From Phycisphaerae bacterium (GTDB lineage Bacteria; Planctomycetota; Phycisphaerae; Sedimentisphaerales; Anaerobacaceae), in contig JAQTLP010000006.1 of assembly GCA_028714855.1 (NCBI GenBank), forward strand, positions 62,001 to 126,000: a DNA stretch of 64,000 nt. The letters run 5' to 3'. Position numbers and translations under genes: made by a program. The notes below the pieces were generated by a model. It was not told the DNA's origin. It made no database searches and was given only the letters and a program-made list of their open reading frames with translations. Positions 5,901 through 63,248 of the stretch are shown in pieces. Position 1 is the stretch's first letter. Every line of letters begins with the position of its first letter.

Positions 5901-6679
5901 GTTTTTGTTGCCTCTCTATAGCTGACATTTACACCCGTTACAGCATTTGTCAGCTGCTCGACAACTCCAGCCCATTCGGTATACATATTTACATACTTAG
6001 TGAGCATGTCCAGTTTGCCTTCGGAGCCGAGGTAGCCTGTCAGCACATCTTTTAATTGCTGCTCATCCAGTTTAATCCAGTCGCCAATATGTTGTTTTAT
6101 ATCATCGAGATTAAGTCCGGCAACGGTAAGTATCTTTCCCGAAGCCGCCAGTTCCGAAAAGAGCTTGTCTCGCTTGCCCTGTATTTCCTTGCGATGGTCA
6201 TAGACATCTGCCAGTTTGTTGAGTATCGTCATTCTGTCAGGAGAGCCCTGAGCGAACTCTTCGAAATCTTTGGTTCGCTGTTCTACCGGCTTTTGCAAAG
6301 AGCTCAAAATAACTGTAACGTTTATATTTTCTGCCAGCAGATCGCTGCGCGCTTTTTCAAAATCCTGCCGCCTCTGGCGGGTTTCTTCACTGGCCAAAGG
6401 CATTTGTATCTCAAAACGGGTGCCGCCCTGCGGACGCCATACAAGGTTTTGGATGTTGGCGGGGTCTATTCGCCTTCGCAGAACAACTATCATCCTCTGG
6501 GCCAAGTCTTTCTTTTCCATTCCCTCAAGTCCCTGCGTATCAATCTCATAGATAAGGCTTGTTCCGCCCGCAAGGTCTATTCCCGGCTTTAAGGTTTTGT
6601 CCGGAGGATATAAGGTCCACACCGCAACAACCACAAGAACAATAATTAAAATAGATTTCCACAATAAACTCTTGTTCAT
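2984..6679 (-). CDS. secDF: Protein translocase subunit SecDF (SecD and SecF fused)
   Basis: Uses the proton gradient to help pull secreted proteins through SecYEG. At 1231 residues it joins SecD (about 1-690) and SecF (about 694-1231). SecD shows a first helix near residues 10-28, a periplasmic region of about 500 residues, then five helices with IGMSVDANVLIFERIREE. SecF starts near NLIHRPNINWMSLRP, has a helix at about 707-727, a periplasmic loop of about 300 residues (E. coli about 100), then a helix bundle with LGYSINDTIVIYDRIRENRR. The ATG follows GAGGAAGC. SecDF fusions are known in planctomycetes and in Bacillus. It lies directly after yajC. The enlarged SecF loop is the odd feature. 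Confidence 0.96.
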   Translation of the reverse strand: MNKSLLWKSILIIVLVVVAVWTLYPPDKTLKPGIDLAGGTSLIYEIDTQGLEGMEKKDLAQRMIVVLRRRIDPANIQNLVWRPQGGTRFEIQMPLASEETRQRRQDFEKARSDLLAENINVTVILSSLQKPVEQRTKDFEEFAQGSPDRMTILNKLADVYDHRKEIQGKRDKLFSELAASGKILTVAGLNLDDIKQHIGDWIKLDEQQLKDVLTGYLGSEGKLDMLTKYVNMYTEWAGVVEQLTNAVTGVNVSYREATKTLDKFNLTEEQLKFCLEMPPKSLKRNYAIDELKAGFPDRSEKIDRAIAAFDEYRPFQGRLDDPRDLQRMLKGAGILEFRILPAQGHAEVDADEMDGYVERLKTKGPKYASDSKNIWCEIENIDEFKRNDVYVAQFGDKFYVLASNKKGETLLHSVEGKDWSLKRAYPTTDQTGRRAIGFSFDEKGGRLFGEITGKNIDRPLCILLDGVAISAPNINSVIFTHGIIQGSFTQIQVVDMVNKLNAGSLPARLIEQPISVKTIGPSIGADNRDKGIRSGLIGLAGTMLCMAIYYTLGGAIADVALLMNLLFTLAIMALLRATFTLPGIAGAILTIGMSVDANVLIFERIREEQQKGVSLRGAIKNGYEKAFSAIFDSNITTIMTAAILYWVGSEEIKGFALVLMLGLSSSLFTALFVTRTIFDWLLAKRIIKDHLVMLNLIHRPNINWMSLRPVFFTISAILTIGGVAVFLTRDDTKNNKYDIEFTGGTSIQINLKDDANLDRRIVEDRIHKAGTDAGSSGLAAASVYSIGTSGKQYEITTTETNKTKASVTFPQAGQTIEAMAAAIKKAAEKKDARLSNLVIIPVSGTATEFTVTTSQLNTFLVGDVLKIAFPDASVSQPQVDEIVNDAVLTAFANELKIQQNLQPEIVSQEKLTQQIVDSYPALVDFIGGIKITCNIERAATAEEINRRLADLRFKPDMQNLNWYSYKILSSDMTTMEPNQPVKSFVYLGVEPEAGFRELSEDEWAQFVKNETDKVLAATEMEASLPRVTQIDPSVGEEAKTRALVAIVLSLIAILIYIWVRFGDLHFGFGAIITLFHDTCVTVGMVTACTYIAATTIGQKLLIGDFKIDLAMIAAFLTLLGYSINDTIVIYDRIRENRRKGTLTPQIINNSINETLSRTLLTSTTTLLVLIVMYIFGGTGLRGFNFAMLFGIILGTYSSIAISAPVLLLRFKTTDKKAKAKEALPAKPQPAK

Positions 6680-6691
6680 AGCTTCCTCTTA

Positions 6692-6742
6692 CAGGTAGTT
6701 AATTGGCGATTGGTTAAATAGTTACCAGTTACCAATTACGAT
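6692..6742. repeat. Dispersed 'ACTGGTTA' repeat C, copy 1
   Basis: The yajC-secDF gap contains runs such as TTAATTGGCGATTGGTTAAA followed by the inverted form GTTACCAGTTACCAATTAC. Closely related strings lie at 20051-20094, 45700-45735 and 63256-63285. They look like one family of AT-rich intergenic repeat. Confidence 0.55.
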
Positions 6743-7152
6743 TTATCTTGTGACAAATTCCTTCCAATTGCTGAAGATGCAACTTTTATTTTCGTATTAT
6801 TCGACTCGTCGACTTTCAATGTAATCTCGTCGCCTTTGATATCCACAACGGTGCCAAAAATCCCGCCGATTGTCTGGACCCTGTCGTTTTTTTGCAGCGA
6901 TTGGATCAGTTTTTTACGTTCCTGCTTTTGCTTTTGAGGCCCTCTAAAAACGACAAAAAACATTACGAGCATCAAAGCAATCCAAATCACCCACACCATG
7001 TTCCCGAACGGCTTCTGTTCCGTACCCTTCGTCGCAACGGCATCGGAGTCAGATGGAATCTTGGTTGAGGCCTCCGTTTCAGGTTCTGAAGTAATACCAC
7101 CCAGCGGCGCCTCATTGCCCTCCACGTTGGCTAAAATCCATAAATTGTTCAT
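6736..7152 (-). CDS. yajC: Preprotein translocase accessory subunit YajC
   Basis: YajC is a small inner-membrane partner of SecDF in the holotranslocon. The protein of 138 residues has an unusually long, acidic N-terminal part of about 50 residues, a membrane helix (about 51-70, MVWVIWIALMLVMFFVVF), then the family signature RGPQKQKQERKK and a small basic C-terminal domain with NDRVQTIGGIFGTVVDIKGDEI. It sits between tgt and secDF, the usual order in many bacteria (tgt-yajC-secD-secF), and is separated from tgt by 80 bases. Confidence 0.95.
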   Translation of the reverse strand: MNNLWILANVEGNEAPLGGITSEPETEASTKIPSDSDAVATKGTEQKPFGNMVWVIWIALMLVMFFVVFRGPQKQKQERKKLIQSLQKNDRVQTIGGIFGTVVDIKGDEITLKVDESNNTKIKVASSAIGRNLSQDKS

Positions 7153-7232
7153 TTCTACTTTCCCTTCATAGCTGGCTGCAAATAACCAATTAATATTTAT
7201 CGATAAGATGTTAAATTATCCACAATCAATAA

Positions 7233-8336
7233 TCAATAGCCATTTTTTAATTGTTCCTCTGCCCATTCAGCAAATTTGTCTTCTTTAAGGACCTGCTTTA
7301 TGCGGACCATTAGTCTCTGGTAAAACCTTAAATTATGCAGTGACACTAAAATCGGCCCGAGCATTTCTCCGACATTAAAGAAATGCCTTAAGGATGCCCG
7401 GCTAAAATTCCTGCAACAGTAACAATCGCAGCAGGCTTCAATTGGCGAGGTGTCGCTTATATGTGCGTTGTTCCTCAATCGCACAGGACCATTTTCAGTG
7501 AAAGCAAAACCGTTTCGGCCGTTTCTGGTTGGCAGAACACAATCAAACATATCGACGCCGGCCCTCACAGCGGCAATAATATCTGCCGGCGTACCAACGC
7601 CCATTAAATAGCGAGGTTTATCCTCCGGTAAAACTCGTGTTGTACCGGAGACTATTCTTATCATCTCTTGATGTCCCTCGCCCACGCCCAATCCTCCGAT
7701 GGCATAACCGCCAAAGTCCAGTTCGACAAGTTCGCCGGCACAAAGCTCTCGAAGCAGCAAATCTGTCCCGCCCTGAACAATACCAAACAACAACTGGTCA
7801 GGGTTATTGTGCGCATCCCTGGCACGTTTCGCCCACTGTATGCTTCTTTCCGTCGCTTTCTTTAGCTGCGAGTCACTACAGGGAAACGGCGTGCACTGGT
7901 CGAAACACATTATTATATCGGCGCCGAGCCGGTTCTGAATTCCGGTGGCGATTTCAGCATTAAGATATATTTTTGCTCCATCTATATGACTGGCAAACTC
8001 AACTCCCTCATCATCGATTTTAGCCAGCGGGCTTAGCGAAAAGACTTGATAACCGCCGCTGTCGGTCAGTATGGGCTTGTTCCACCCCATCAGTTTGTGC
8101 AGTCCGCCGGCCTTTTCTACCGCCTCGATTCCGGGCCGCAGCAACAAATGATATGTATTGGCTAAAACAATTACAGAACCGGTTTCTTCGAGCTGCTGTG
8201 GCGTTATTCCTTTTACCGCCCCGGAACTGCCTACCGGCATAAAAACAGGCGTCTCGACCTTGCCGTGGGCTGTGGTTAATACTCCCAGCCGGGCTGCGGA
8301 ACAACTGTCTGTAGATAGAATTTCGAAGCTACCCAT
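7233..8336 (-). CDS. tgt: tRNA-guanine transglycosylase (queuine tRNA-ribosyltransferase)
   Basis: Exchanges guanine 34 in GUN-anticodon tRNAs for the queuosine precursor preQ1. The 367-residue protein has all hallmarks: VLANTYHLLLRPG, ILTDSGGYQVFSL (active-site Asp), GIVQGG, GGLGVGE, the nucleophile region DMFDCVLPTRNGRNG, and the zinc site with a C-x-C-x2-C cluster (CDCYCC) and a later SLHNLRFY His. The frame has a TTG at 8339, but the ATG at 8336 overlaps the upstream SpoIID stop as TGATG and is preferred. It is translationally coupled to SpoIID and precedes yajC-secDF. Confidence 0.97.
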   Translation of the reverse strand: MGSFEILSTDSCSAARLGVLTTAHGKVETPVFMPVGSSGAVKGITPQQLEETGSVIVLANTYHLLLRPGIEAVEKAGGLHKLMGWNKPILTDSGGYQVFSLSPLAKIDDEGVEFASHIDGAKIYLNAEIATGIQNRLGADIIMCFDQCTPFPCSDSQLKKATERSIQWAKRARDAHNNPDQLLFGIVQGGTDLLLRELCAGELVELDFGGYAIGGLGVGEGHQEMIRIVSGTTRVLPEDKPRYLMGVGTPADIIAAVRAGVDMFDCVLPTRNGRNGFAFTENGPVRLRNNAHISDTSPIEACCDCYCCRNFSRASLRHFFNVGEMLGPILVSLHNLRFYQRLMVRIKQVLKEDKFAEWAEEQLKNGY

Positions 8337-9670
8337 CAATAAACTCTTTCGATATTTGAGCCGGGATAATAATAAAAGAGAATCTGCTTTGAATTTTTAC
8401 CCTGCCTGGCCATCCCCTCTGCCCCGCATTGGCACATTCCAACACCGTGGCCGAAGCCTCTGCCCTGTACAAATGCCCATTTATCGCCCGTATTGACGAT
8501 TTGACAGACTGCGCTTTTTATCTCCTGCCCGCTTGGGTCTATTGCAAGACGGAAGTCCTCAGCACGCAAAAAATCTCTTTTGCCGCTTGAGCCGGTAATT
8601 TCTATCCGTGTCAACCTGGAATATCCCTCGTAGTTGCTCTGCCCGACAGAATTTACATTTATAATTTCTCCGATTCCCGCCAGCCTCGGATACCGCTTTA
8701 GCAATTTCTCTGCAACAACACTCTTGTTAAACCAGACCGTCGGCCAGTAAAAAAAATCTGCCTTTGCCACGCTCTCACAATACGAACACGGTACGCCCTC
8801 AAGCGGCGCAAAAGAATCTCCGAACACATTTTTGCTGTTCTCGGTATGACCGCCGCAGCTTGAGCTGTAGTAAGCAGGGAACAGCCCCGTGCTACCGTCA
8901 GTTTGCTCGCAGACCAAAACCTGGCCATACGTCCGATTGACAGCATTCCAGACTTGAGCCGATTCGGCTGCAATCCCGAGATAACGCTGGTTGGCCTGTG
9001 TTTTGGTAACATCCCAGTTGCGGCCGCTGCCGAAACGCTTTTTAATATACAAACAATAGGTTCTTGCCGCAATTGCCTGCGCTTTAAGCGCCTCAGGTTC
9101 CCAGTAATTAGGCATCTCGGCGCTTATTACACCGGCCAAATACGGCTCAAGCGGAACAAGATTTATAGCACTAAAAGAATTACAATCAGGATTGAGTATT
9201 AGCTTCAATTCGCCGCGGTAATCGGCGCCATCCAGGTTAAAAATATACGGTTCATCAGGAAAAATAATTATCTGCTCGCCGGTAAAAGGTCTGCCGGAAA
9301 TGGCAATACTGCCGTCGGTTATCGTTACCTCCATCGGTGCATCTGTTTGTTCAATGCAGGCCGCCGGAATCCGCGTTTGGGCATCCAAAACGGTGAACGT
9401 GGAACTAATCTTCAGTGTGCAGGCTTTGATGCCGTCAAGGAGCAAAACCCTTATCCAAAACTGCGGATCGATATCCATTTGCGGGGTTGCTCTGCCGGGG
9501 TGCCTAGCTTTACACCCGCCAACTATTATCAGCCAAAGCAGAAAAATTGCGCGGCAGCAGCATATAATGTTTGGTTTATGGCAGATAGAAACTTGTCTTT
9601 TCAATTCTAAACTTTTAACCTTCCTTCGACTGTGTTCGGAATGGAAAACAAACCAGCTCGTTGTGAGCAT
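8336..9670 (-). CDS. SpoIID/LytB-domain lipoprotein
   Basis: SpoIID proteins are lytic transglycosylases acting on peptidoglycan strands without peptide stems; most non-sporulating relatives are uncharacterised. The SpoIID domain covers about residues 160-440, with YLAGVISAEMPNYWEPEAL, KAQAIAARTYCLYI, YYSSSCGGHTEN and the C-terminal GRGFGHGVGMCQCGAEGMA. A hydrophobic stretch ending in LLWLIIVGGC (near residue 52) is a lipoprotein signal. The first ATG (9670) would put about 36 odd residues before it, including a copy of a dispersed repeat at 9623-9644, so the TTG at 9604 is a plausible true start. The stop overlaps tgt. Confidence 0.85.
   Translation of the reverse strand: MLTTSWFVFHSEHSRRKVKSLELKRQVSICHKPNIICCCRAIFLLWLIIVGGCKARHPGRATPQMDIDPQFWIRVLLLDGIKACTLKISSTFTVLDAQTRIPAACIEQTDAPMEVTITDGSIAISGRPFTGEQIIIFPDEPYIFNLDGADYRGELKLILNPDCNSFSAINLVPLEPYLAGVISAEMPNYWEPEALKAQAIAARTYCLYIKKRFGSGRNWDVTKTQANQRYLGIAAESAQVWNAVNRTYGQVLVCEQTDGSTGLFPAYYSSSCGGHTENSKNVFGDSFAPLEGVPCSYCESVAKADFFYWPTVWFNKSVVAEKLLKRYPRLAGIGEIINVNSVGQSNYEGYSRLTRIEITGSSGKRDFLRAEDFRLAIDPSGQEIKSAVCQIVNTGDKWAFVQGRGFGHGVGMCQCGAEGMARQGKNSKQILFYYYPGSNIERVY
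9623..9644. repeat. Coding-associated repeat D, copy 1
   Basis: The bases CCTTCGACTGTGTTCGGAA resemble the CCTTCGACTACGCTCAGG repeat at 39373-39392. The copy lies inside the N-terminal extension of the SpoIID frame, upstream of its lipoprotein signal, and argues that the real start is downstream. Confidence 0.5.
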
Positions 9671-9699
9671 GCCTAACCAAGTCGAAAGAATCGAACCGT

Positions 9700-11016
9700 T
9701 TATTCCAGGCTTCGCAACGATAACCCAAGGTTGCTAATGGCTTTTTTAATTTCGTTCAAGCTCGTCACGCCGAAATTTTTAACACCGAGAAGTTCGGCCT
9801 CTGTCTTGTGTACCAATTCACCGATTGTGCGAATATTGAGCTTTTGCACGCACTTTCGAGCACGGACCGACAATTGAAGGTCTTCCACAGGCTTGCTCAA
9901 AAGACCTTCGTATTCCTCTTTTACGCCGCTGCGCTCGAACGGCTCTGCCGGGGTAAACTGCTTTTCCTCCAGCGCCATGCCGAGATGTAATCCTTTTGAT
10001 TCAAGAATGACCTTTATCTCCCGCAGCGAGGTTTCACCAAAATTCTTATAAGACAGCAGCTCTACCTCAGTAATGTTCAAAAGGTCCCCGACCGTATCAA
10101 TACTCATTTTTTTGAGGCAGTTCCTGCTGCGCACCGACAGCTCAAAATCTGAGATTGGAGTTTCGAGAATTTGGGTCCTGCGGTCTTTTTTCTTCTCTTT
10201 TTCTTCATCGTAGAACATTGTTTTTGAGCTTTCAATGTCCTTTTTGAACAGGCTTGCTCTTTGGTGATTGGGGTGATACTTTAAGACCTTATCTATACAT
10301 TGAGCCGCCCTGTCAAATTCGCCCATATCCTCATAAAGCACAGCTAAATTCAGAAGGGCGCTGACATAAACCGGAGTAACTGAAGCAATTTGCTTGTAGT
10401 AGTCAACGGCTGCCTCTTCATCACCGGATAAATCACAGCGATACGCCAAATGGAAAAGGGCCTTTTGATGATTCGGAGATAATTCCAATGCTATTTTGTA
10501 ATTGTCCGTTGCCTCGTCATAAAGCCCCTGTGTTTCCTGAAGACGGCCAAGCTGGTAGTGGTATTCCGCGCTTACGTTCTCAAAATTGGCCAGCGTCTTG
10601 AGTTCCTTGGCCGCTGCGTCGAAGTTTGATGCATGACGATACGTGGCGGCTTTCTCCAGTGTTATGTTCATCTTGTCCGCTTCATATTCGAGTGCCTTTT
10701 GCAAATCTTTTATCGCTTCATCGAATCTGGCCATTCGGCGAAGTGCGAACGCCAGATAGATATATTTCTCTTTGCCGTCTTTTGCTTTTTCTAATCTCTT
10801 GACCGCCTCGGCATACTTGCCAAGGATAAAAAGGCCGATGCCCGCCGCTATAAAAGCTTTTTGGCCGGTTCCGGACATATTTTCTTCCACCCGTTTGCTG
10901 AAAGCTATCCGATTAGCCTCGCTGGAATGGACAAAAAACGACAATTTCTCAATCTCTTCTAATGACGGCAGCTTATCTGCAAACAAGTCTATTTGGCACT
11001 CTGCAACCTGTTCCAT
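9700..11016 (-). CDS. TPR protein with two RNA polymerase alpha-CTD-like domains
   Basis: A 438-residue soluble protein. Residues about 50-260 form helical tetratricopeptide repeats (for example YHYQLGRLQETQGLYDEA). Then come a charged linker (about 266-284) and two copies of the RNA polymerase alpha-subunit C-terminal domain, at about 285-348 (FELSVRSRNCLKKM ... YKNFGETSLREIK) and 372-436 (LQLSVRARKCVQKL ... VKNFGVTSLNEIK). Against E. coli alpha, copy 1 keeps the equivalents of Arg265, Asn268, Gly296 and Ser299; copy 2 keeps Arg265, Gly296 and Ser299 but has Lys for Asn268. The rest of RpoA is absent. DNA binding or interaction with transcription factors is inference. It is divergent from hemA. 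Confidence 0.85.
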   Translation of the reverse strand: MEQVAECQIDLFADKLPSLEEIEKLSFFVHSSEANRIAFSKRVEENMSGTGQKAFIAAGIGLFILGKYAEAVKRLEKAKDGKEKYIYLAFALRRMARFDEAIKDLQKALEYEADKMNITLEKAATYRHASNFDAAAKELKTLANFENVSAEYHYQLGRLQETQGLYDEATDNYKIALELSPNHQKALFHLAYRCDLSGDEEAAVDYYKQIASVTPVYVSALLNLAVLYEDMGEFDRAAQCIDKVLKYHPNHQRASLFKKDIESSKTMFYDEEKEKKKDRRTQILETPISDFELSVRSRNCLKKMSIDTVGDLLNITEVELLSYKNFGETSLREIKVILESKGLHLGMALEEKQFTPAEPFERSGVKEEYEGLLSKPVEDLQLSVRARKCVQKLNIRTIGELVHKTEAELLGVKNFGVTSLNEIKKAISNLGLSLRSLE

Positions 11017-31994: not shown

Positions 31995-32510
31995 CTACTT
32001 AGGCACGACAACCAATGTTATACGCTTTCCAGCCATTCTGCCTGGCTGTTCGACCTTGGCCGCATCCTCTAACGACCCTGTAATCTGCTCGACCATCTTA
32101 TATCCAAGATCCTTGTGCAGCATCTGGCGCCCGCGGAATATTATCGTGAACTGAACCTTATGGCCTTTCAGCAAAAATTCGCGGGCGTGATTAAGCTTGA
32201 TTTCCAGGTCGTGTTTGTCGGTTTCGGGCCTGAGTCTGATTTCCTTAAGCACAGTCGAATGGTGCTGGTGTTTTTTATGTGCGTCGCGGACCTTGCGCTT
32301 TTGCTGATACAGCCACTTGCCGTAATCCATTATCCTGCAAACCGGCGGGTCGCTCATAGGCGATACTTCCACAAGGTCTAATTCGGCCTCGCGGGCCTTC
32401 GTAAGCGCATCGTATGTATTTACCAGTCCGACTTGATTATTTGATTCGTCGATTAGCCGAATTACGTTGGCCCGAATCCTCCCGTTTATCCTTAATCCTT
32501 GTTTGCTAAT
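31995..32510 (-). CDS. infC: Translation initiation factor IF-3 (ATT start codon)
   Basis: IF-3 keeps ribosomal subunits apart and checks the start codon. The full protein needs the N-terminal domain LRINGRIRANVIRLIDESNN, which lies upstream of the first ATG/GTG/TTG (GTG at 32372). Between the in-frame TGA near 32552 and that GTG there is no ATG, GTG or TTG; the ATT at 32510-32508 is preceded by AGGTGG with 6 bases spacing and gives 171 residues, the usual IF-3 length. E. coli infC is known to start with AUU, which lets IF-3 repress itself. The C-domain shows KEIRLRPETDKHDLEIKL and GRQMLHKDLGYKM. Confidence 0.93.
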   Translation of the reverse strand: MSKQGLRINGRIRANVIRLIDESNNQVGLVNTYDALTKAREAELDLVEVSPMSDPPVCRIMDYGKWLYQQKRKVRDAHKKHQHHSTVLKEIRLRPETDKHDLEIKLNHAREFLLKGHKVQFTIIFRGRQMLHKDLGYKMVEQITGSLEDAAKVEQPGRMAGKRITLVVVPK

Positions 32511-34827: not shown

Positions 34828-35241
34828 ATGGATGTAAATTTGGTTTTGCTCAAAAAGAACAGCTCACATAAGCTTTTCCCCCTTCCAAGCAGCGTCACGA
34901 CAATTGGCCGGCGTCATAGTTGTGATTTATGCATCCCTCTGATGTCGGTTTCCAAAAAACACTGCCAGCTAAATCACGATGAAGGGATATTGAAAATTCG
35001 TGACCTTGACTCGCGTAACGGCACTTACCTCAATGGCAAGCGTGTAGATGAAGCGGTGATTCAGGCAGGCGATTCCATCAAGATAGGACCTTTAATATTC
35101 GTGCTCCAGATTGATGGTCAGCCGCAGACGATTGCCGCACCTGACCTGGCTGCACAAAGCCCACCCCCTCAGGATGCAGCAGCGGAGGATATCGCAAATG
35201 AGCAGTTAGATAATCCTGTACAACTGGAGGGCCTCGATTAG
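34828..35241 (+). CDS. FHA domain protein
   Basis: A 137-residue protein that is almost only a forkhead-associated domain, a phosphothreonine-binding module. Conserved FHA residues are visible: TTIGRRHSCDLCI (Gly-Arg), SVSKKHCQLNH (Ser and His) and DLDSRNGTYLNGKRV (Asn-Gly). The C-terminal 35 residues are acidic and Pro/Ala-rich, likely a disordered tail. There is no kinase in the window to supply a phosphate. It begins a three-gene run with the GspE-like ATPase and CvpA-like genes; ribosome site GGAGAAGG. Confidence 0.92.
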   Translation: MDVNLVLLKKNSSHKLFPLPSSVTTIGRRHSCDLCIPLMSVSKKHCQLNHDEGILKIRDLDSRNGTYLNGKRVDEAVIQAGDSIKIGPLIFVLQIDGQPQTIAAPDLAAQSPPPQDAAAEDIANEQLDNPVQLEGLD

Positions 35242-35306
35242 TTAGAGGCAACCGGTCCACCTTGATTTATTGTATTGCTTTATATGCTTGCTGATACGGC
35301 AAAGAT

Positions 35307-36989
35307 ATGGTAGTTTGTGGCATATTGTCGGCTGATTTTTCAGTATCCGGCTTCTGGGTAACTAATATGGGAATATTGGCTTTGACAAAATGTTTCTCAA
35401 TCTTCCAACAATTAGGCGCAAGCCTAATCTCGATTGGCACAGGGCCTGGTACAGCCTTATCTGTCACGTCGCTGCCTTTTAACCCGATCAAATTTGTCTT
35501 TCTTGTGGGATGGGTATATCTCTGTTTGTACTTTGTTCAACATATCCAGTTCAGTTCGTTGGTACCCAAGAACCGTAAATCAATAGCCAATATTGCCGCG
35601 CTTTTTTTGGGACCTATACTTTTATTTATGCTGCTGATAGCGGACTTACTAAAAAAATCCTACAAGGGGCACCGTAGTATCTTCGAGATAATACAAGAGC
35701 ATCTGCAAAATGTATCTTCGGGGATGAGGTCTTTACATCCTGATTCCAAAGATAAAACAATGTTAAGGCTGGTTGATTCATCAGGTAGAAGCCTTACGGA
35801 AATATATGGCCACGGAAAAGGCAAACGGGAAGACAGCCACATTCTCGATTTGACCGAACAAATTGTCGCTGACGCCCTCAATGAACGGGCCAGCGACATT
35901 CTTATCGACCCGAAGAACGAATTAATCTACACAGTCAGGTTTCGAATAGACGGCGTATTGAGAACGGTCAATGAGCTTGATCCTGCTATATGTCAGGCGG
36001 TAATAAACAGCATCAAGGCCGTTGCTAACATGGATATTGCCGAAAGACGCAGGCCTCAGGATGGTGCATTTTTAGCAAAAACAGCCGAAGGTACTGTGTT
36101 CTTCAGAGTTGCAAGTGCCGGGGCTGTCAGCGGCGAAAAGTTATCGATTAGGGTGCTTAACCAAAACGCCGGAATGTTTACGCTGGAAAGTATCGGATTA
36201 ACGGATAAGCAGCGGGCGGTCATCGAAGCTATGGTCGCCAAACCTACCGGCATGGTGCTTATGTGCGGCCCTACAGGCAGCGGCAAAACCACAACTTTGT
36301 ACGCCATGCTCAACAGAATTGACTTGCTTACACGCAACGTTGTTACGGTTGAAGACCCTATCGAATATGTACTGCCGAATGCCAGTCAGATTGAAGTTAA
36401 TCCAAAGGCTGATATTACTTTTGCAAAGTCTTTGCGAAGCATTCTAAGACAGGACCCGGATGTAATATGCGTCGGAGAAATACGGGATGAGGAAACCGCC
36501 GCGATTGCTCTTCGGGCGTCACAAACCGGCCATCTTGTCATGGGGACAATACACAGCGACAGCAATGCATCGGCATTGGTGCGGCTGCTGGATTTAAGCG
36601 TAACGCCCCTCCTGCTGTCATCGGGATTAGATATTCTTATCTCGCAGCGATTGGTTCGTCTGCTCTGTAATAGTTGCAAGGTACCCGCTAAATTAAGTCA
36701 AAACCAAATCCACGACCTCCACAAAAAAGGCATAAACTACAAAAATATCTTCCAGGCCAAGGGATGTGACAAATGCCACAAAACCGGCTATCGCGGAAGG
36801 ATAGCGATTTTCGACATCCTGGTTCTCAGCGACGAATTAAAAGCAGATATAGCCAATAATAGATTGTCTGTAACTCAGTTGAAAAAAGACGGTGACAAAA
36901 AAGGCAGATCCAACCTCAGAAAACAGGGATTGAAGGCCGTTGTATCCGGAATTACAAGTCTTGAAGAGCTTAAAAGAGTGATAGGGTAA
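35307..36989 (+). CDS. GspE/PilB-like secretion ATPase with N-terminal membrane helices
   Basis: A 560-residue traffic ATPase. The ATPase core starts near residue 170 (SHILDLTEQIVADALNERAS) and has Walker A GPTGSGKTTTLYAML, the Asp box VTVEDPIEYVL, Walker B VICVGEIRDEETA, the His box TGHLVMGTIHSD, and a tetra-Cys zinc site (LCNSCK ... GCDKCHKTGYRGR). Unlike usual GspE/PilB there is no N-terminal MshEN domain; instead two hydrophobic helices lie near residues 59-80 and 91-114. The ATG at 35307 is assumed; ATG 35367 is possible. It may be anchored to the inner membrane. It follows FHA and precedes CvpA-like. Confidence 0.85.
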   Translation: MVVCGILSADFSVSGFWVTNMGILALTKCFSIFQQLGASLISIGTGPGTALSVTSLPFNPIKFVFLVGWVYLCLYFVQHIQFSSLVPKNRKSIANIAALFLGPILLFMLLIADLLKKSYKGHRSIFEIIQEHLQNVSSGMRSLHPDSKDKTMLRLVDSSGRSLTEIYGHGKGKREDSHILDLTEQIVADALNERASDILIDPKNELIYTVRFRIDGVLRTVNELDPAICQAVINSIKAVANMDIAERRRPQDGAFLAKTAEGTVFFRVASAGAVSGEKLSIRVLNQNAGMFTLESIGLTDKQRAVIEAMVAKPTGMVLMCGPTGSGKTTTLYAMLNRIDLLTRNVVTVEDPIEYVLPNASQIEVNPKADITFAKSLRSILRQDPDVICVGEIRDEETAAIALRASQTGHLVMGTIHSDSNASALVRLLDLSVTPLLLSSGLDILISQRLVRLLCNSCKVPAKLSQNQIHDLHKKGINYKNIFQAKGCDKCHKTGYRGRIAIFDILVLSDELKADIANNRLSVTQLKKDGDKKGRSNLRKQGLKAVVSGITSLEELKRVIG

Positions 36990-36994
36990 AGTTT

Positions 36995-37654
36995 ATGGCG
37001 TTTTGGATAGGCATATTAGTTAGCGGGGCCTTCGCATGGCTTACCATAAAACTGCGCTTCTATCAGACATGGGCCCTTGTTTTCAATATCCTAATCTCAA
37101 TTTATCTGGCTATATACCTTCAGCCAATAATCGGAAATATCTCTGCGTTCGGTGATACGCCGTACAGTAACGCTCTGACTATGATAGTTGTTGCGGCAGC
37201 GTCTTTTTTAATTTTACATGGCATATCATACACATTTCTTACGGGTCAATTTAATGTCACATTTCCAACAGTAGTTGACTCGGTCGGTGCCGGCCTCCTG
37301 GGCTTTTTAGCCGGTTTTCTCGTCTGGAGTTTTCTAAGCCTCTTATTCTACATAACACCAGCTTCTCAAAATACCTTCGTAAAGGAAATCGGTTTTACAG
37401 ACCAGTTTCAGCAAACCAGTGTCTCATACATCTCCCGGTTTTGCAATTTGATTAATGCGGTAGTCTCCTCTCAAAACAAAGAGTCCTCTGCGGAACAAGC
37501 TATCAGTAAATTGCTGAAAGACCTCGGACAGAAAGCACGCAAAAAAACGAACGAAAAAACCAAACCGGTTGAGCCTGTCAAACCAAAAGAAGCGAAAACC
37601 CACATTCGTGACCAGAACGAACTCGGCCCGCCTCCTGAGATTGAAGATTTTTAA
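36995..37654 (+). CDS. CvpA-like membrane protein
   Basis: A 219-residue protein with four hydrophobic helices in the first 130 residues (FWIGILVSGAFAWLTIKL, ALVFNILISIYLAIYLQP, LTMIVVAAASFLILHGISYT, VGAGLLGFLAGFLVWSFLSL) and a charged C-terminal tail. The pattern and the VGAGLLGFLAGF segment resemble CvpA (colicin V production) proteins, a family of uncertain role in the envelope. It starts 5 bases after the ATPase gene and may work with it. Confidence 0.7.
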   Translation: MAFWIGILVSGAFAWLTIKLRFYQTWALVFNILISIYLAIYLQPIIGNISAFGDTPYSNALTMIVVAAASFLILHGISYTFLTGQFNVTFPTVVDSVGAGLLGFLAGFLVWSFLSLLFYITPASQNTFVKEIGFTDQFQQTSVSYISRFCNLINAVVSSQNKESSAEQAISKLLKDLGQKARKKTNEKTKPVEPVKPKEAKTHIRDQNELGPPPEIEDF

Positions 37655-37666
37655 ATCGGCTTACCT

Positions 37667-39472
37667 TCAGCTTTTTGCCTGGTCAAGGATAAGGTCCTTG
37701 ACTTTCTGACTCGGCAGATTGAGCGCGCCATAAGCCGCTGCGGCGGCGCTGCGAAGCTCAGGATCGCTCTCTTTAGAGCTGACCAGCGAATAAATAGCGT
37801 CTATCTTTTCGTCATCAAGCAGATTGGCATTAATTTTAGCTGAGACGGCTAAAGAATCAAAGGCGGATATTCGAATGTCCTTGGAGTTGCTTTCAGTAAG
37901 AGCCATCGCAGCTATCGCTCGCTGGGCCTCGGGGCTGCCAAGATAAGCCAAAGTCCGGCCGGTAAGAACCTGAATCTCAACCCGCGTACTCTTTGTTGCA
38001 TCTATAAGGGCGCTTTGAGCCGCGGATAAATCAATAACGGCACTTCGTGTTATAGCCAATTTGAGCATAACTTCTGCCGCCCGAAGAGAAAAGCTGTTCG
38101 CATCCATCGTCTCGTTGTCACCTGTCTTTTGCCCCTTGTCTTTTTGTTCGAGGGCTTCTGTTAAATTCTTAACGACGAGATTACTCTCCGCAAAGCCTTC
38201 CTTGGGACCGACCGCCGCTATCGCTATCGCCGCACTGTATCTCACGGCTTTATCATCGAACGACAATGCCTGAACCAGCGGCTGGGTCGGACCAATTCGA
38301 TAAAGCAATGATTTTTCGCCCGCAGTGGTGGCTAATGCCTCGACTGCGCGAAGCGCGATATAAGCGTTTTTATCTTTAATAGCCAAAGCAAGAGCCTGAT
38401 GCAAATACTCCGGCCCTGCCGTGGTAGCATAAGTCATCGCGTCGGCATGACCTTCGCCAAAGTAACTCGGCATATCGAGACCAGTGGACTCGGCCTTAAA
38501 ATATGCGGCCAGCCACAAACCGATAGCCCGGCCGAAGCCGGCGTCCGCTTTTAACGCCCACTCGCAAGAGCGCATCGTCATAAGCTCGTTAAAGTAGCTT
38601 CTGTCAACCTTCTCCCGCGTCAAACTTCGTTCGTTCGGGTCCCAGAACCAGACATTGGCGAAATTGGCGTCTTCCACCGGAGCTAAAGATGGAGTGTTAT
38701 TATAATAATCCTCACCGAGCTGGTAGAACAACTGCGCAGCTGGAGCTTTCAAAGCGCCAGGGTCTATCTGCTTGATGCTTTCGCTGGCAAGTTTGCGAAG
38801 CTCTTCGGAACTATCCTTCTCGACAATGTATTTCAGATAAGGCAGCGATTGAGGATATTTAATCTTTCCCAGCGCCCGCACTATTTCAGCCTTTAATCCG
38901 ACGTCTTCAGCCTGCAAAGCCGCCGTAAGAGGCCTTATTGCATCTCTGCCCACTTGCGGCAGTGCCCATACGATATTCGGAAATTCCTCTTTTCGGGTTT
39001 TGTCCGCCATTGCATTGAGCATAAAATATGCCGCGTATTCGCCGGCGTTCTGAAGTCGCTTGACTGCTGCAAGCCTGCCCCTGTCTGTGCCGCTTAGCCT
39101 TCTTATTTCCTCTCCAATAATCTTCGGGTCGGACCGCCGGATGAACCTGCCCTGCTCGATAATGTCCAGAACTTTTTTGCTCACCTCAACCAGCTCGGCA
39201 TCGGACGCAGTGTCGATGACCCTTAACAAAATCGCATACCCCTGGGGATTCTCTTCACTGAAACCGAGCAATTCCACCGGGTCAGGATTGCTGTCGAGAA
39301 CAGCTTGCGCGTATCCCTTGGCCAAATCGAGTCGGCCAATCTTTGTGTAATGCAAATAGTCGTTCCAGCTTGCCCTGAGCGTAGTCGAAGGGTCTTTGGT
39401 TGCCCCGAAAGAAATGCTGGCGGCCAAAAGTACTGCTGCTAAAATTATTCCGACGGTCTTCTTATTAAACAT
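37667..39472 (-). CDS. Exported HEAT-repeat protein
   Basis: A 601-residue protein with a signal peptide (KTVGIILAAVLLAASISFGA). Much of the rest is alpha-helical pairs of HEAT/PBS-lyase type, for example AEIVRALGKIKYPQSLPYLK, IALRAVEALATTAGEKSLL and VRYSAAIAIAAVGPKEGF, giving a curved solenoid for protein contacts in the periplasm. ATG 39472 with GAGGAG upstream is preferred over the more upstream frame start. Just after the signal peptide the residues DPSTTLRAS are encoded by a copy of a dispersed repeat (39373-39392). Function unknown. Confidence 0.8.
   Translation of the reverse strand: MFNKKTVGIILAAVLLAASISFGATKDPSTTLRASWNDYLHYTKIGRLDLAKGYAQAVLDSNPDPVELLGFSEENPQGYAILLRVIDTASDAELVEVSKKVLDIIEQGRFIRRSDPKIIGEEIRRLSGTDRGRLAAVKRLQNAGEYAAYFMLNAMADKTRKEEFPNIVWALPQVGRDAIRPLTAALQAEDVGLKAEIVRALGKIKYPQSLPYLKYIVEKDSSEELRKLASESIKQIDPGALKAPAAQLFYQLGEDYYNNTPSLAPVEDANFANVWFWDPNERSLTREKVDRSYFNELMTMRSCEWALKADAGFGRAIGLWLAAYFKAESTGLDMPSYFGEGHADAMTYATTAGPEYLHQALALAIKDKNAYIALRAVEALATTAGEKSLLYRIGPTQPLVQALSFDDKAVRYSAAIAIAAVGPKEGFAESNLVVKNLTEALEQKDKGQKTGDNETMDANSFSLRAAEVMLKLAITRSAVIDLSAAQSALIDATKSTRVEIQVLTGRTLAYLGSPEAQRAIAAMALTESNSKDIRISAFDSLAVSAKINANLLDDEKIDAIYSLVSSKESDPELRSAAAAAYGALNLPSQKVKDLILDQAKS
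39373..39392. repeat. Coding repeat D, copy 2, inside the HEAT-repeat gene
   Basis: The minus strand reads CCTTCGACTACGCTCAGG, a short imperfect palindrome known as a dispersed element in several bacterial phyla. It is in frame and adds PSTTLRA to the protein just after the signal peptide. Confidence 0.7.
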
Positions 39473-39876
39473 TAAATATCTCCTCAAAAGCCGTTTACCT
39501 TATCAAAAACGCAGATTCCTATAAGTAATCGTCATTTAGCCCCATATCGTATAGATAAATGCCCTTTTTGTCAATAAAAATACGTTTTGTGTTATGTTAT
39601 CGGAACATTCGAGGTTCTACCTTTCTCGGTTAGCCCCGCAATTTATTGCGAGGGTTAGAAATGTTTACCCGTCGCCGGCACGGTGACGATTCAAAACCAT
39701 ATTTAGCCCCGGCCTTCGCCCCTGTGTAATACTAACGTCCCTCATCCTGCCTGCGGAAACAACAGCAACTTTAGGTGTTGTGAAAACCTGAAAAATAGGG
39801 TAAAATTCCACAAGGCATCCGGGAGCGGAAAACACACGAGATACAATTCACGAGATAAGACATATGAGGGCAAGAG
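39473..39876. other. Gene-free stretch upstream of the HEAT-repeat gene
   Basis: No gene seen in 404 bases. It holds the HEAT-gene promoter (39546-39574) and a short imperfect hairpin with a loop at CCCCGCAATTTATTGCGAGG (about 39636-39655). The remainder shows no recognisable structure. Confidence 0.55.
39546..39574 (-). promoter_or_regulatory. Promoter of the HEAT-repeat gene
   Basis: Minus strand: TTGACA (39574-39569), 17-base spacer, TACGAT (39551-39546), about 74 bases before the ATG at 39472. Confidence 0.6.
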
Positions 39877-60269: not shown

Positions 60270-61478
60270 TTAGTGGCTGATTATGGTTGATATTCTAAAC
60301 ACGGGCAGCAGCAGGGCTATCGCAATAGTCCCGATAATACTGCCCAAAATTACTATCATTACCGGCTCTATAAGAGCCATAACAGCCCCTATAGAAGCCT
60401 CGAGTTTTTTCCCGTAAAAGACCGATACCTTGTCGCAAACTTCACCGAGTTTACCGCTCTTTTCGCCGGCGCGGAGCATTTGGACAATCCCGGGGGCAAT
60501 TAGGTGTTTTTCGTATCCTTCGCTGTCCTGCGAAATCAGTATCGACTCCGACAATTGATAACCGTCCCGAATTTTCTTGTCTGTTCCTGCCCAGAGCTGC
60601 TGGAAGTAGTAATTCTCACACGAACCTTGTATCACCTCTATAGTATCCAGCAGGCTCACGCCCGTATTGACCATTGTGGACATAATACGCATGCTGCGAG
60701 TTACGAGCGTGTCGACAAACATCGTGCCAAATACAGGTGTGTGGATTTTTAGATAATCTATCACCCGCCGCCCCATTAGCGTCCTGCCCCAGTAATATAA
60801 TCCCATTGAGGCAAATACAATCGTCGTCAGAATAACCGTCATTGCCTGGAAATCCCCTAATATCTTGCTGAAACCAACAAGTATTTGAGTGATTTTGGGA
60901 AGGGCGGCACCTCTGGATTCATAGATTTTCATGAACCTCGGCAAAGCAAAGAACATCAGCGTCCCTGTCGCAGCCACAGCCATCAACGCCATTACAATCG
61001 GATACGTAAGGGCCCCTTTGATGCGCTTGCGGGTTTCGAATTCAAAGTTCAGATAGCCACTAAGCACCTCGAGCATTTCTACCATTTTACCGGATGCTTC
61101 CGAAGCCTTGACCATACTGATAAACATCGAGCTGAAAACCTTCGGATATGCGCTCAGCGTCTTCGACAAATTTTCACCGCCCTTGACCGCCTCTGCCACA
61201 TCCATAATTATCATTTTGAGTACACCTTCTTCGGATTGCTCTGCAATAGCATCAAGAGCATCACTAAGCACCACCCCGCTGTCAAGCATTACCGCCAACT
61301 GTGTCGTGAACAGTATCAGATCTGTCGATTTAACCTTTACCGTATATAACGGTTGAGATCCATCTCGTGACCGGCCCCTCATATACTCCTGCTTCATTTG
61401 AGGCTCCACAGGCTTCTGTTTCTTACTTTCCTTTACAAAATCAGGTTTTTCTGCTGTATTTCTTACCGACACAATCAT
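60270..61478 (-). CDS. gspF: Type II secretion/type IV pilus inner-membrane protein (GspF/PilC)
   Basis: A 402-residue membrane platform protein of a type II secretion or type IV pilus machine. Two similar cytoplasmic helical domains, each followed by a membrane segment: LILFTTQLAVMLDSGVVLSD with YPIVMALMAVAATGTLMFFA, and VDTLVTRSMRIMSTMVNTGV with LMALIEPVMIVILGSIIGTI, plus LQTRLMVSMRAGEKSGKLGE-like text (MLRAGEKSGKLGEVCDKV). The first 60 residues are a charged linker. It follows the GspE gene by 36 bases. Confidence 0.93.
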   Translation of the reverse strand: MIVSVRNTAEKPDFVKESKKQKPVEPQMKQEYMRGRSRDGSQPLYTVKVKSTDLILFTTQLAVMLDSGVVLSDALDAIAEQSEEGVLKMIIMDVAEAVKGGENLSKTLSAYPKVFSSMFISMVKASEASGKMVEMLEVLSGYLNFEFETRKRIKGALTYPIVMALMAVAATGTLMFFALPRFMKIYESRGAALPKITQILVGFSKILGDFQAMTVILTTIVFASMGLYYWGRTLMGRRVIDYLKIHTPVFGTMFVDTLVTRSMRIMSTMVNTGVSLLDTIEVIQGSCENYYFQQLWAGTDKKIRDGYQLSESILISQDSEGYEKHLIAPGIVQMLRAGEKSGKLGEVCDKVSVFYGKKLEASIGAVMALIEPVMIVILGSIIGTIAIALLLPVFRISTIISH

Positions 61479-61514
61479 TTATTTGGCTTCCAAACTCTTA
61501 TTTCCTGTTATCGG

Positions 61515-63248
61515 TTACTCGCTGTCCTCGCCGTCCGTTGTTGGGGCTGTTCTCAACACTTCTTCGATTGATATTATTCCCGCTTTTACCTTTTCGATAC
61601 CATCTAATTGCAGAGGAACCATCCCGGTTCGCAGTGCTTCGGCTCGCAGTTTCTTAAGGCTCACCCGGTCATTAATCATTTCCTTGATTTCATCATCAGG
61701 CACAAACAGCTCATGTATGGCAATTCGGCCGGCACAACCAGTGTTCCTGCACTTCCTGCAGCCCACACCACGGTAAAATTTCTCGACCCCACCACATATA
61801 CTTTTCACCGCTTTTCTAATACTGCTGGCAGCCTCGTACTCCGTCTTGCAAGCCGGGCATATCTTACGTACCAGACGCTGTGCTAAAACAGCAATCAGCG
61901 ATGCGCTTACAAGATAAGGGGCAACGCCAAGGTCCAGCAAACGCGTCACGGCGCCGGGTGCATCATTTGTGTGTAAAGTTGACAGGACCAAATGGCCCGT
62001 CAGCGCTGCCTGCACAGCAATGTTTGCAGTGATGTTATCTCTAACCTCGCCAATCATTATGATATTAGGGTCTTGTCTTAACAAACTCCGCAATGCCGTC
62101 GAAAATTGAAAACCCACACCTTCGCTAACCTGAAACTGATTTATGCCCGCCATATTGCACTCTACAGGGTCTTCAACCGTGCAGATATTAACCTCATCGC
62201 TGTTTAATTCAGCCAAAGCAGCGTAAAGGGTGGTATTTTTCCCTGAACCGGTTGGTCCTGTTACCAAAACTATACCATTTGGAGATTGTATCACTTTCCT
62301 GAACAGCTGCAGGTTCTCGTAGGTAAATCCGAGAGATTCAAGACTAAAGAGAATCTTCTGCGGATCAATAATTCTGATAACCACTTTTTCGCCAAAGTTG
62401 CCCGGCATAACCGACACACGTAAATCAATCGGCCTGCCGTCCTTTAAGACATGAATACCGCCGTCTTGAGGCAATCGGCGCTGAGCTATATCCAGTTCAG
62501 CCATTATTTTGATACGCGAAACAATCGCAGCATGCATCTGATGAGGCGGGCATAACTTTTCATAAAGCTTGCCGTCGACCCTGTACCGGACACGCAGTTT
62601 CTTATCATACGGCTCTATATGAACGTCACTGGCATTTTCCAGCACAGCGTTGTAAATAAGGTAATTAACCAACTTAACAACCGGCGATTGGCCCGCTATT
62701 TCTGCAAGGTCGCCTATATCCGCTTTATACTTTTCTATCAGCGAAAAGTCTCCCAGTCCTTCCTCATCGATAATATCGTCAATGACAAAAACATTCGCCG
62801 ACGGCAAATATGTCCCCAGCGTGGCCTTGATATCCTTTGTCGTAGCGCAGACTATCTGAACCTTACAGCCGCTTATACGTTCTACCTCATCTATCAAAAA
62901 TACGTTTGTCGGCTCGTTCACCGCCACTGTAAGCTTATCTCCAACCTTAAACAGCGGCAGAATGACATGCTCTTCGAGAAATTCCCTCGGCAAAATATCG
63001 AGCACTTTTGCATCGCATATCTTCGGACTAACCTGGGCATAAGGCACATCGTACGCCTCTGCAAGCGCCGCGGCTATCTGATTCTCCGTACAATAATTCA
63101 TCTCGACCAAAAGCTCGCCGAGCAGCTTGCGATGCCCCTTTTCTTTCTGTTCAGCAAGAGCACTATCTATCTGCTCTTGTGTAACAATACCGCGACCCAT
63201 CAGCAATTGACCGAGCTGCGTCTTGTTTTCTGTTGCTATCCGACTCAT
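61515..63248 (-). CDS. gspE: Type II secretion/pilus ATPase (GspE/PilB)
   Basis: A 577-residue traffic ATPase with the MshEN domain (about 1-155, QLGQLLMGRGIVTQEQIDSA, LGELLVEMNYCTENQIAAAL) and the ATPase core: Walker A VTGPTGSGKNTTLYAALAEL, Asp box CTVEDPVECNMAGINQ, Walker B IIMIGEVRDNITA, His box TGHLVLSTLHTNDAPG, Cys4 zinc site (KICPACK ... GCRKCRNTGC). The Walker A has Asn where the family has Ser/Thr after the Lys, which is unusual. ATG 63248 has GAGGG upstream; the frame extends to 63287. Upstream of gspF. Confidence 0.93.
   Translation of the reverse strand: MSRIATENKTQLGQLLMGRGIVTQEQIDSALAEQKEKGHRKLLGELLVEMNYCTENQIAAALAEAYDVPYAQVSPKICDAKVLDILPREFLEEHVILPLFKVGDKLTVAVNEPTNVFLIDEVERISGCKVQIVCATTKDIKATLGTYLPSANVFVIDDIIDEEGLGDFSLIEKYKADIGDLAEIAGQSPVVKLVNYLIYNAVLENASDVHIEPYDKKLRVRYRVDGKLYEKLCPPHQMHAAIVSRIKIMAELDIAQRRLPQDGGIHVLKDGRPIDLRVSVMPGNFGEKVVIRIIDPQKILFSLESLGFTYENLQLFRKVIQSPNGIVLVTGPTGSGKNTTLYAALAELNSDEVNICTVEDPVECNMAGINQFQVSEGVGFQFSTALRSLLRQDPNIIMIGEVRDNITANIAVQAALTGHLVLSTLHTNDAPGAVTRLLDLGVAPYLVSASLIAVLAQRLVRKICPACKTEYEAASSIRKAVKSICGGVEKFYRGVGCRKCRNTGCAGRIAIHELFVPDDEIKEMINDRVSLKKLRAEALRTGMVPLQLDGIEKVKAGIISIEEVLRTAPTTDGEDSE

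Follow-up and report, generated by a model that had tools for sequence, protein, structure and literature searches.

The window analysed here, a stretch of 64,000 nucleotides from a draft planctomycete assembly of 2.31 Mb in 19 contigs, encodes a membrane-anchored ATPase of the GspE type followed by a CvpA-like protein, and comparison with related genomes showed that the two genes are passed on together. This ATPase-CvpA pair is the functional core of the locus. Its retention across many planctomycete genomes points to an undescribed envelope machine, which we read, tentatively and with some doubt, as a planctomycete inner-membrane motor in which a membrane-anchored GspE hexamer would work with CvpA in the place of GspF and without pilins. 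The form spread over the phylum would be powered by PilT, its GspE often being a dead adaptor, and the form in the window would be a self-powered derivative; the motor could drive crateriform structures and fibres or some other envelope process. A whole lineage has a version of the secretion ATPase that anchors itself and goes with another membrane partner, the pairing being kept over large distances; little is understood of the envelope biology of these cells. No paper describing a membrane-anchored GspE/CvpA pair was found in the limited open-access literature searched.

The locus comprises three consecutive ORFs, all on the forward strand: 34828-35241 (137 amino acids), 35307-36989 (560 amino acids) and 36995-37654 (219 amino acids), encoding a small FHA-domain protein, the ATPase and the CvpA-like protein, respectively. 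The initial annotation had described three genes in a row on one strand, 66 and 5 bases apart; the ORFs, the strand and the second gap were confirmed, and the first gap is really 65 bases. Relatives of the ATPase start at a Met that corresponds to residue 21 of the 560-residue ORF, so the true start is probably 35367, giving a protein of 540 residues and a gap of 125 bases to the FHA gene. Convergent to the CvpA gene is a HEAT-repeat protein with a signal-peptide-like start (37667-39487, reverse strand). The cluster of this protein recurs in 12 compared loci, and in two loci of family f2 it is on the other side of the pair.

The motor domain of the ATPase (T2SSE, 35829-36977, residues 175-557) matches PF00437 with 385.9 bits against a Pfam cut-off of 24.9. 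Walker A (GPTGSGKT, 36267-36290) and the Walker B region (DPDVICVGEIRD, 36453-36488) are each kept in 35 of 36 window-type sequences, and 35 of the sequences, that of the window among them, have the Asp box and the His box in addition to both Walker motifs. The ATPase sequence also contains the four zinc cysteines (C454, C457, C487 and C490; 36666-36776), in agreement with the complete motor motifs and zinc site reported before. The alignments of 33 sequences omit L039 (judged to come from the genome of L045, with equal gene lengths), L040 (cut), L042 (with a run of N), L071 (second type, see below) and L050, whose Walker A, GPTGCGKT, was missed by the motif pattern; the motif count of 36 has L040, L042 and L050 restored. 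In a fold search the model of the motor domain matches the GspE/PilB structures 4ksr, 5oiu and 5zfr (best E 3.5e-40). The scores for the NCBIfam equivalogs TIGR02533 (410.6 versus 630.25 bits) and TIGR02538 (405.4 versus 675.65 bits) are below their cut-offs. The protein thus shares the T2SSE domain, the catalytic motifs, the zinc cysteines and the fold with the GspE/PilB extension ATPases of type II secretion and type IVa pili, but it has a membrane module instead of the MshEN N-domain, and its gene is accompanied by CvpA instead of GspF.

Upstream of the motor, which begins at residue 175, Pfam revealed no MshEN or T2SSE_N family at E<=1. This part of the protein holds two hydrophobic segments, and the stretch LLDSSGRSxxEIYG in it is conserved. 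The first segment (FVFLVGWVYLCLYFV, 35493-35537) includes the invariant W69 (numbering of the 560-residue ORF), and the second (NIAALFLGPILLFMLLI, 35589-35639), with Gly-Pro in its middle, is either a full span or re-entrant. Both segments are conserved in the 33 aligned sequences, which rules out an ordinary GspE with an overlooked N-domain. The proposed replacement of MshEN by two membrane helices therefore stands as regards the missing domain and the conserved hydrophobic segments, but the two-helix topology does not fit the charge pattern: the loop between the segments is positive, with a mean net charge of +2.3 over 33 sequences, and a simple two-helix hairpin would not be expected to have such a loop. 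The second segment may be re-entrant. The confidence of the ATPase model over residues 41-110 (block means of 58-74) is too low to decide the topology, and some distant relatives carry further hydrophobic segments.

The CvpA-like protein (36995-37654, forward strand) has four predicted membrane helices and a charged tail. Its match to Colicin_V (PF02674), 24.3 bits, is below the Pfam cut-off of 29.3, and a member of the homologous CvpA set described below, from locus L124, scores 30.3 bits, over the cut-off. In the structural model (pLDDT 82.9) the helices span residues 2-20, 22-47, 56-83 and 92-120. Foldseek returned no match to this fold at E<=0.001, the best Z in a structural comparison was 4.6, and the PDB holds no sequence relative at E under 0.4; the absent fold match does not amount to a new fold. 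A charge count shows the first loop to be positive and the second negative, which suggests that both ends are outside; the second-type CvpA proteins do not clearly follow this pattern. As in the CvpA family PF02674, the protein is small, is predicted to have four helices and gives a weak profile match; unlike that family, it is linked to a secretion-type ATPase, and the proteins of the class-wide paralogue are longer. In Escherichia coli, cvpA is linked with purF.

Conservation of the pair was surveyed in 75 genomes of the window's order with a completeness of at least 90%. The membrane module of the ATPase gave 58 matches in 57 of these genomes, and CvpA is directly downstream in 58 of 58. 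This conserved order, together with the conserved membrane segments, bears out the self-anchored GspE-type motor of the initial annotation. Three CvpA matches (G010, G033 and G350) had no module by coordinates; in G010 and G033 (loci L012 and L028) an ATPase ORF broken by the contig end adjoins CvpA. A search from the other side recovered relatives of the CvpA-like protein from 41 of 61 genomes, the window's own included, and an ATPase-family ORF adjoins CvpA in all 29 loci returned from other genomes (L010-L038). The outer neighbours of the pair vary among loci, and L058 carries a tandem duplication of the two genes together. The second ATPase copy of L058 (8712-10322) has lost parts of Walker A, Walker B and the His box, and the first copy is intact. 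Adjacency of this kind shows a shared history of the two genes, not contact between their products. A contig-level scan for relatives returned two loci, both from Planctomycetota. The exact window-type module could not be extended beyond its own order: among 294 genomes of the phylum, the full-length profile is strong only in that order, and its other matches are weak and mostly cover the generic start of the motor domain.

A second type of the pair occurs in the same genome, outside the window. On contig C7 (L116) PilT (6440-7561) is followed by a divergent, membrane-anchored GspE (7590-9257), which has no ATPase motifs, and by CvpA (9320-10495). The initial annotation overlooked this PilT-bearing paralogue. 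The order PilT-GspE-CvpA is kept in 22 of the 22 loci first read at length. The second-type membrane module (profile A6) is present in 103 of 294 genomes of the phylum and its CvpA (profile A4) in 110. CvpA is downstream within 3.5 kb in 96 of the 103 by coordinates, and in 99 after the loci were read; G285, G310 and G330 have a weak CvpA (23-29 bits) directly downstream. In G078 and G180 the pair is split and CvpA is not directly downstream; in G157, of the same genus, CvpA is on another contig by coordinates, and in G284 the module and CvpA are on different contigs, with CvpA at a contig end. The 18 CvpA matches found without a module consist of four of the window type, these four split or broken pairs and ten weak matches, whose loci (L200, L202, L204, L207 and L212-L217) were read and have no such ATPase. 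Locus L071 was tallied with the second type as L124, and L245, the same place as L208, was counted once. Both second-type profiles match in all 54 sampled genomes of the window's class, so this cassette is likely to have a basic role. Its CvpA proteins are long, 351-749 residues in loci of that class, and may carry an additional domain outside the membrane. Judged by eye, many second-type proteins outside the class have a signal-peptide-like start, often ending in AQ, followed by membrane segments, and their N-terminus would then be outside. In several distant genomes (L124, L173, L192, L194 and L199) a gene resembling hisF (by eye) is directly upstream of the PilT cassette.

Loss of the ATPase motifs in this second type goes with the presence of PilT. 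The GspE protein has lost both Walker patterns in 35 of 55 loci, and PilT is upstream in all 35. The other 20 loci keep Walker A, with PilT adjacent in eight and not adjacent in 12; one of them, L244, misses the strict Walker B pattern. The association has a Fisher p of 2.9e-7, in a test that treats these related loci without accounting for kinship. PilT itself has intact motifs in 22 of 22 aligned sequences. The loss of motifs beside PilT suggests that force generation has been split from anchoring. Beside the window-type pair, no PilT-type ORF was found among 34 loci (L041-L075 minus L071); L074 has a further ATPase-family ORF at the far end of the locus. The paralogous cassette, which we take to be comparable to PilT/PilU, resembles this and other pairs of pilus ATPases in placing an intact PilT beside a second ATPase-family protein. 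It differs from them in that a GspE anchored in the membrane takes the second place, in many cases lacking the ATPase motifs, and in that CvpA follows it.

The two membrane-anchored types probably share one origin, judging from sequence comparisons. Their CvpA sets are homologous (hhalign 97.9%, E 3.5e-13), and their membrane modules align weakly (12.6%, E 0.0023). In a quick tree, 12 window-type sequences group with 15 of 16 second-type rows (support 83), and 28 of 29 ordinary rows are apart (87). The one remaining second-type row pairs with L112, which was initially labelled ordinary and is a membrane-anchored form with CvpA. A more careful tree separated all 22 membrane-anchored rows from 14 ordinary ones with support of 93/89. 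The split loses support when the long degenerate rows are removed (96/71 for one side, 42/0 for the other), and the AU test does not reject a grouping of the window type with ordinary GspE (p-AU 0.278).

Secretion ATPases normally depend on partner proteins to bring them to the membrane, and they work through GspF. Our proposal is a single motor unit in the inner membrane, made up of the ATPase and the CvpA-like protein, with CvpA in GspF's place; it is a serious candidate that falls just short of being probable. The ATPase would form a hexameric ring, fixed to the membrane through its own helices, and the ring would push or turn CvpA as its membrane partner, in the way of GspF/PilC in the pilus motor; the motion would then be handed to a component of the envelope. 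In the paralogue, PilT would provide ATP hydrolysis and the degenerate GspE would be the membrane adaptor. The window version of GspE would perform both hydrolysis and anchoring, and hence would need no PilT beside it. The role of CvpA, its contact with the ATPase, the transfer of force, the topology and the cargo are inferred. Crateriform structures with fibres, described for planctomycetes (PMC5394234), are one possible client of the proposed motor.

Alternatively, the ATPase could be an auxiliary motor of an ordinary type IV pilus or type II secretion system, acting on a distant GspF/PilC, with CvpA only anchoring or stabilising it. The motor domain closely resembles GspE/PilB of solved structure, and elsewhere the genome encodes several GspE/PilB genes and five GspF proteins; a GspF encoded at another place could serve the window ATPase. 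However, each of the five GspF proteins already has an adjoining GspE, the membrane module replaces MshEN, and a search of 95 loci, 11 of which hold only CvpA, gave no GspF-like ORF; taken together, these points make an auxiliary motor somewhat unlikely. The nearest GspF in the window (60270-61478) is beside another GspE, in an ordinary GspE-GspF pair at 60270-62696 on the reverse strand, about 23 kb downstream. A search near the homologues for GspF and pseudopilins, as suggested in the initial annotation, gave neither a GspF-like ORF nor the usual pseudopilin set at the locus. A crude class III signal pattern matched in five of the 95 loci, and only in L053 are such pseudopilin-like ORFs, two in number, on the same strand, approximately 0.8-2.6 kb upstream; pseudopilins near the ATPase are thus rare, not absent. 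An essential-gene study of Planctopirus limnophila describes planctomycete-specific genes in a locus that carries a type II secretion annotation (PMC10632474).

It is unlikely that the pair serves envelope homeostasis, in which CvpA would be the acting protein and the ATPase would move or regulate it, with no fibre or cargo. This reading draws on EHEC and two vibrios, which need cvpA to resist deoxycholate (PMC6705877), and on the length of the second-type CvpA proteins. The planctomycete CvpA proteins are distant, however, with Pfam scores below the cut-off, and the function seen in enteric bacteria need not transfer to them.

The FHA gene (34828-35241, forward strand) is an optional, loose neighbour of the motor proposed here and probably not a part of its core. 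Its product matches PF00498 with 71.5 bits (Pfam cut-off 20.7), and the GRx and SxxH binding motifs are retained in 10 aligned sequences. Among the 57 ATPase-bearing genomes the FHA gene adjoins the ATPase in 15, all of family f1, in which 28 of 40 genomes have the ATPase; in the other 42 it is not adjacent. Close FHA relatives are present in 55 of the 75 genomes of the order, including 13 that have no ATPase and in which the gene is beside other genes; close FHA relatives are missing from 15 genomes that have the ATPase. The limited adjacency and the 13 genomes with FHA and no ATPase speak against FHA as a core part, and the three-gene order of the initial annotation is conserved only within one family. 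In the loci read, FHA and the ATPase occur together mostly at the thrS locus (thrS judged by eye), where FHA also occurs without the ATPase (L238) and the ATPase without FHA (L048, L050 and L054). Control of the motor by FHA, with phosphothreonine binding as the switch, had also been proposed; it is in keeping with the FHA gene lying directly upstream on the same strand in the 15 genomes, the retained binding motifs and three protein kinase matches over the cut-off in the window's own genome, but it is very improbable given that FHA stands apart in most genomes, and since the adjacency is confined to one family such control is possible at most in part of it.

A role in anti-phage defence was rejected: PADLOC gave one weak match, of the ATPase to mad8 (E 3.5e-5, over 38 residues at Walker A), and none for the FHA or CvpA-like protein. 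An FHA-like protein (by eye) is encoded divergently from the PilT cassette in G180 (L242, 415-1116, reverse strand). Elsewhere in the window, an infC-like frame on the reverse strand (31995-32489) is, by eye, open upstream of its first ATG/GTG/TTG, and translation may begin near 32489 at a rare codon, for example ATA.
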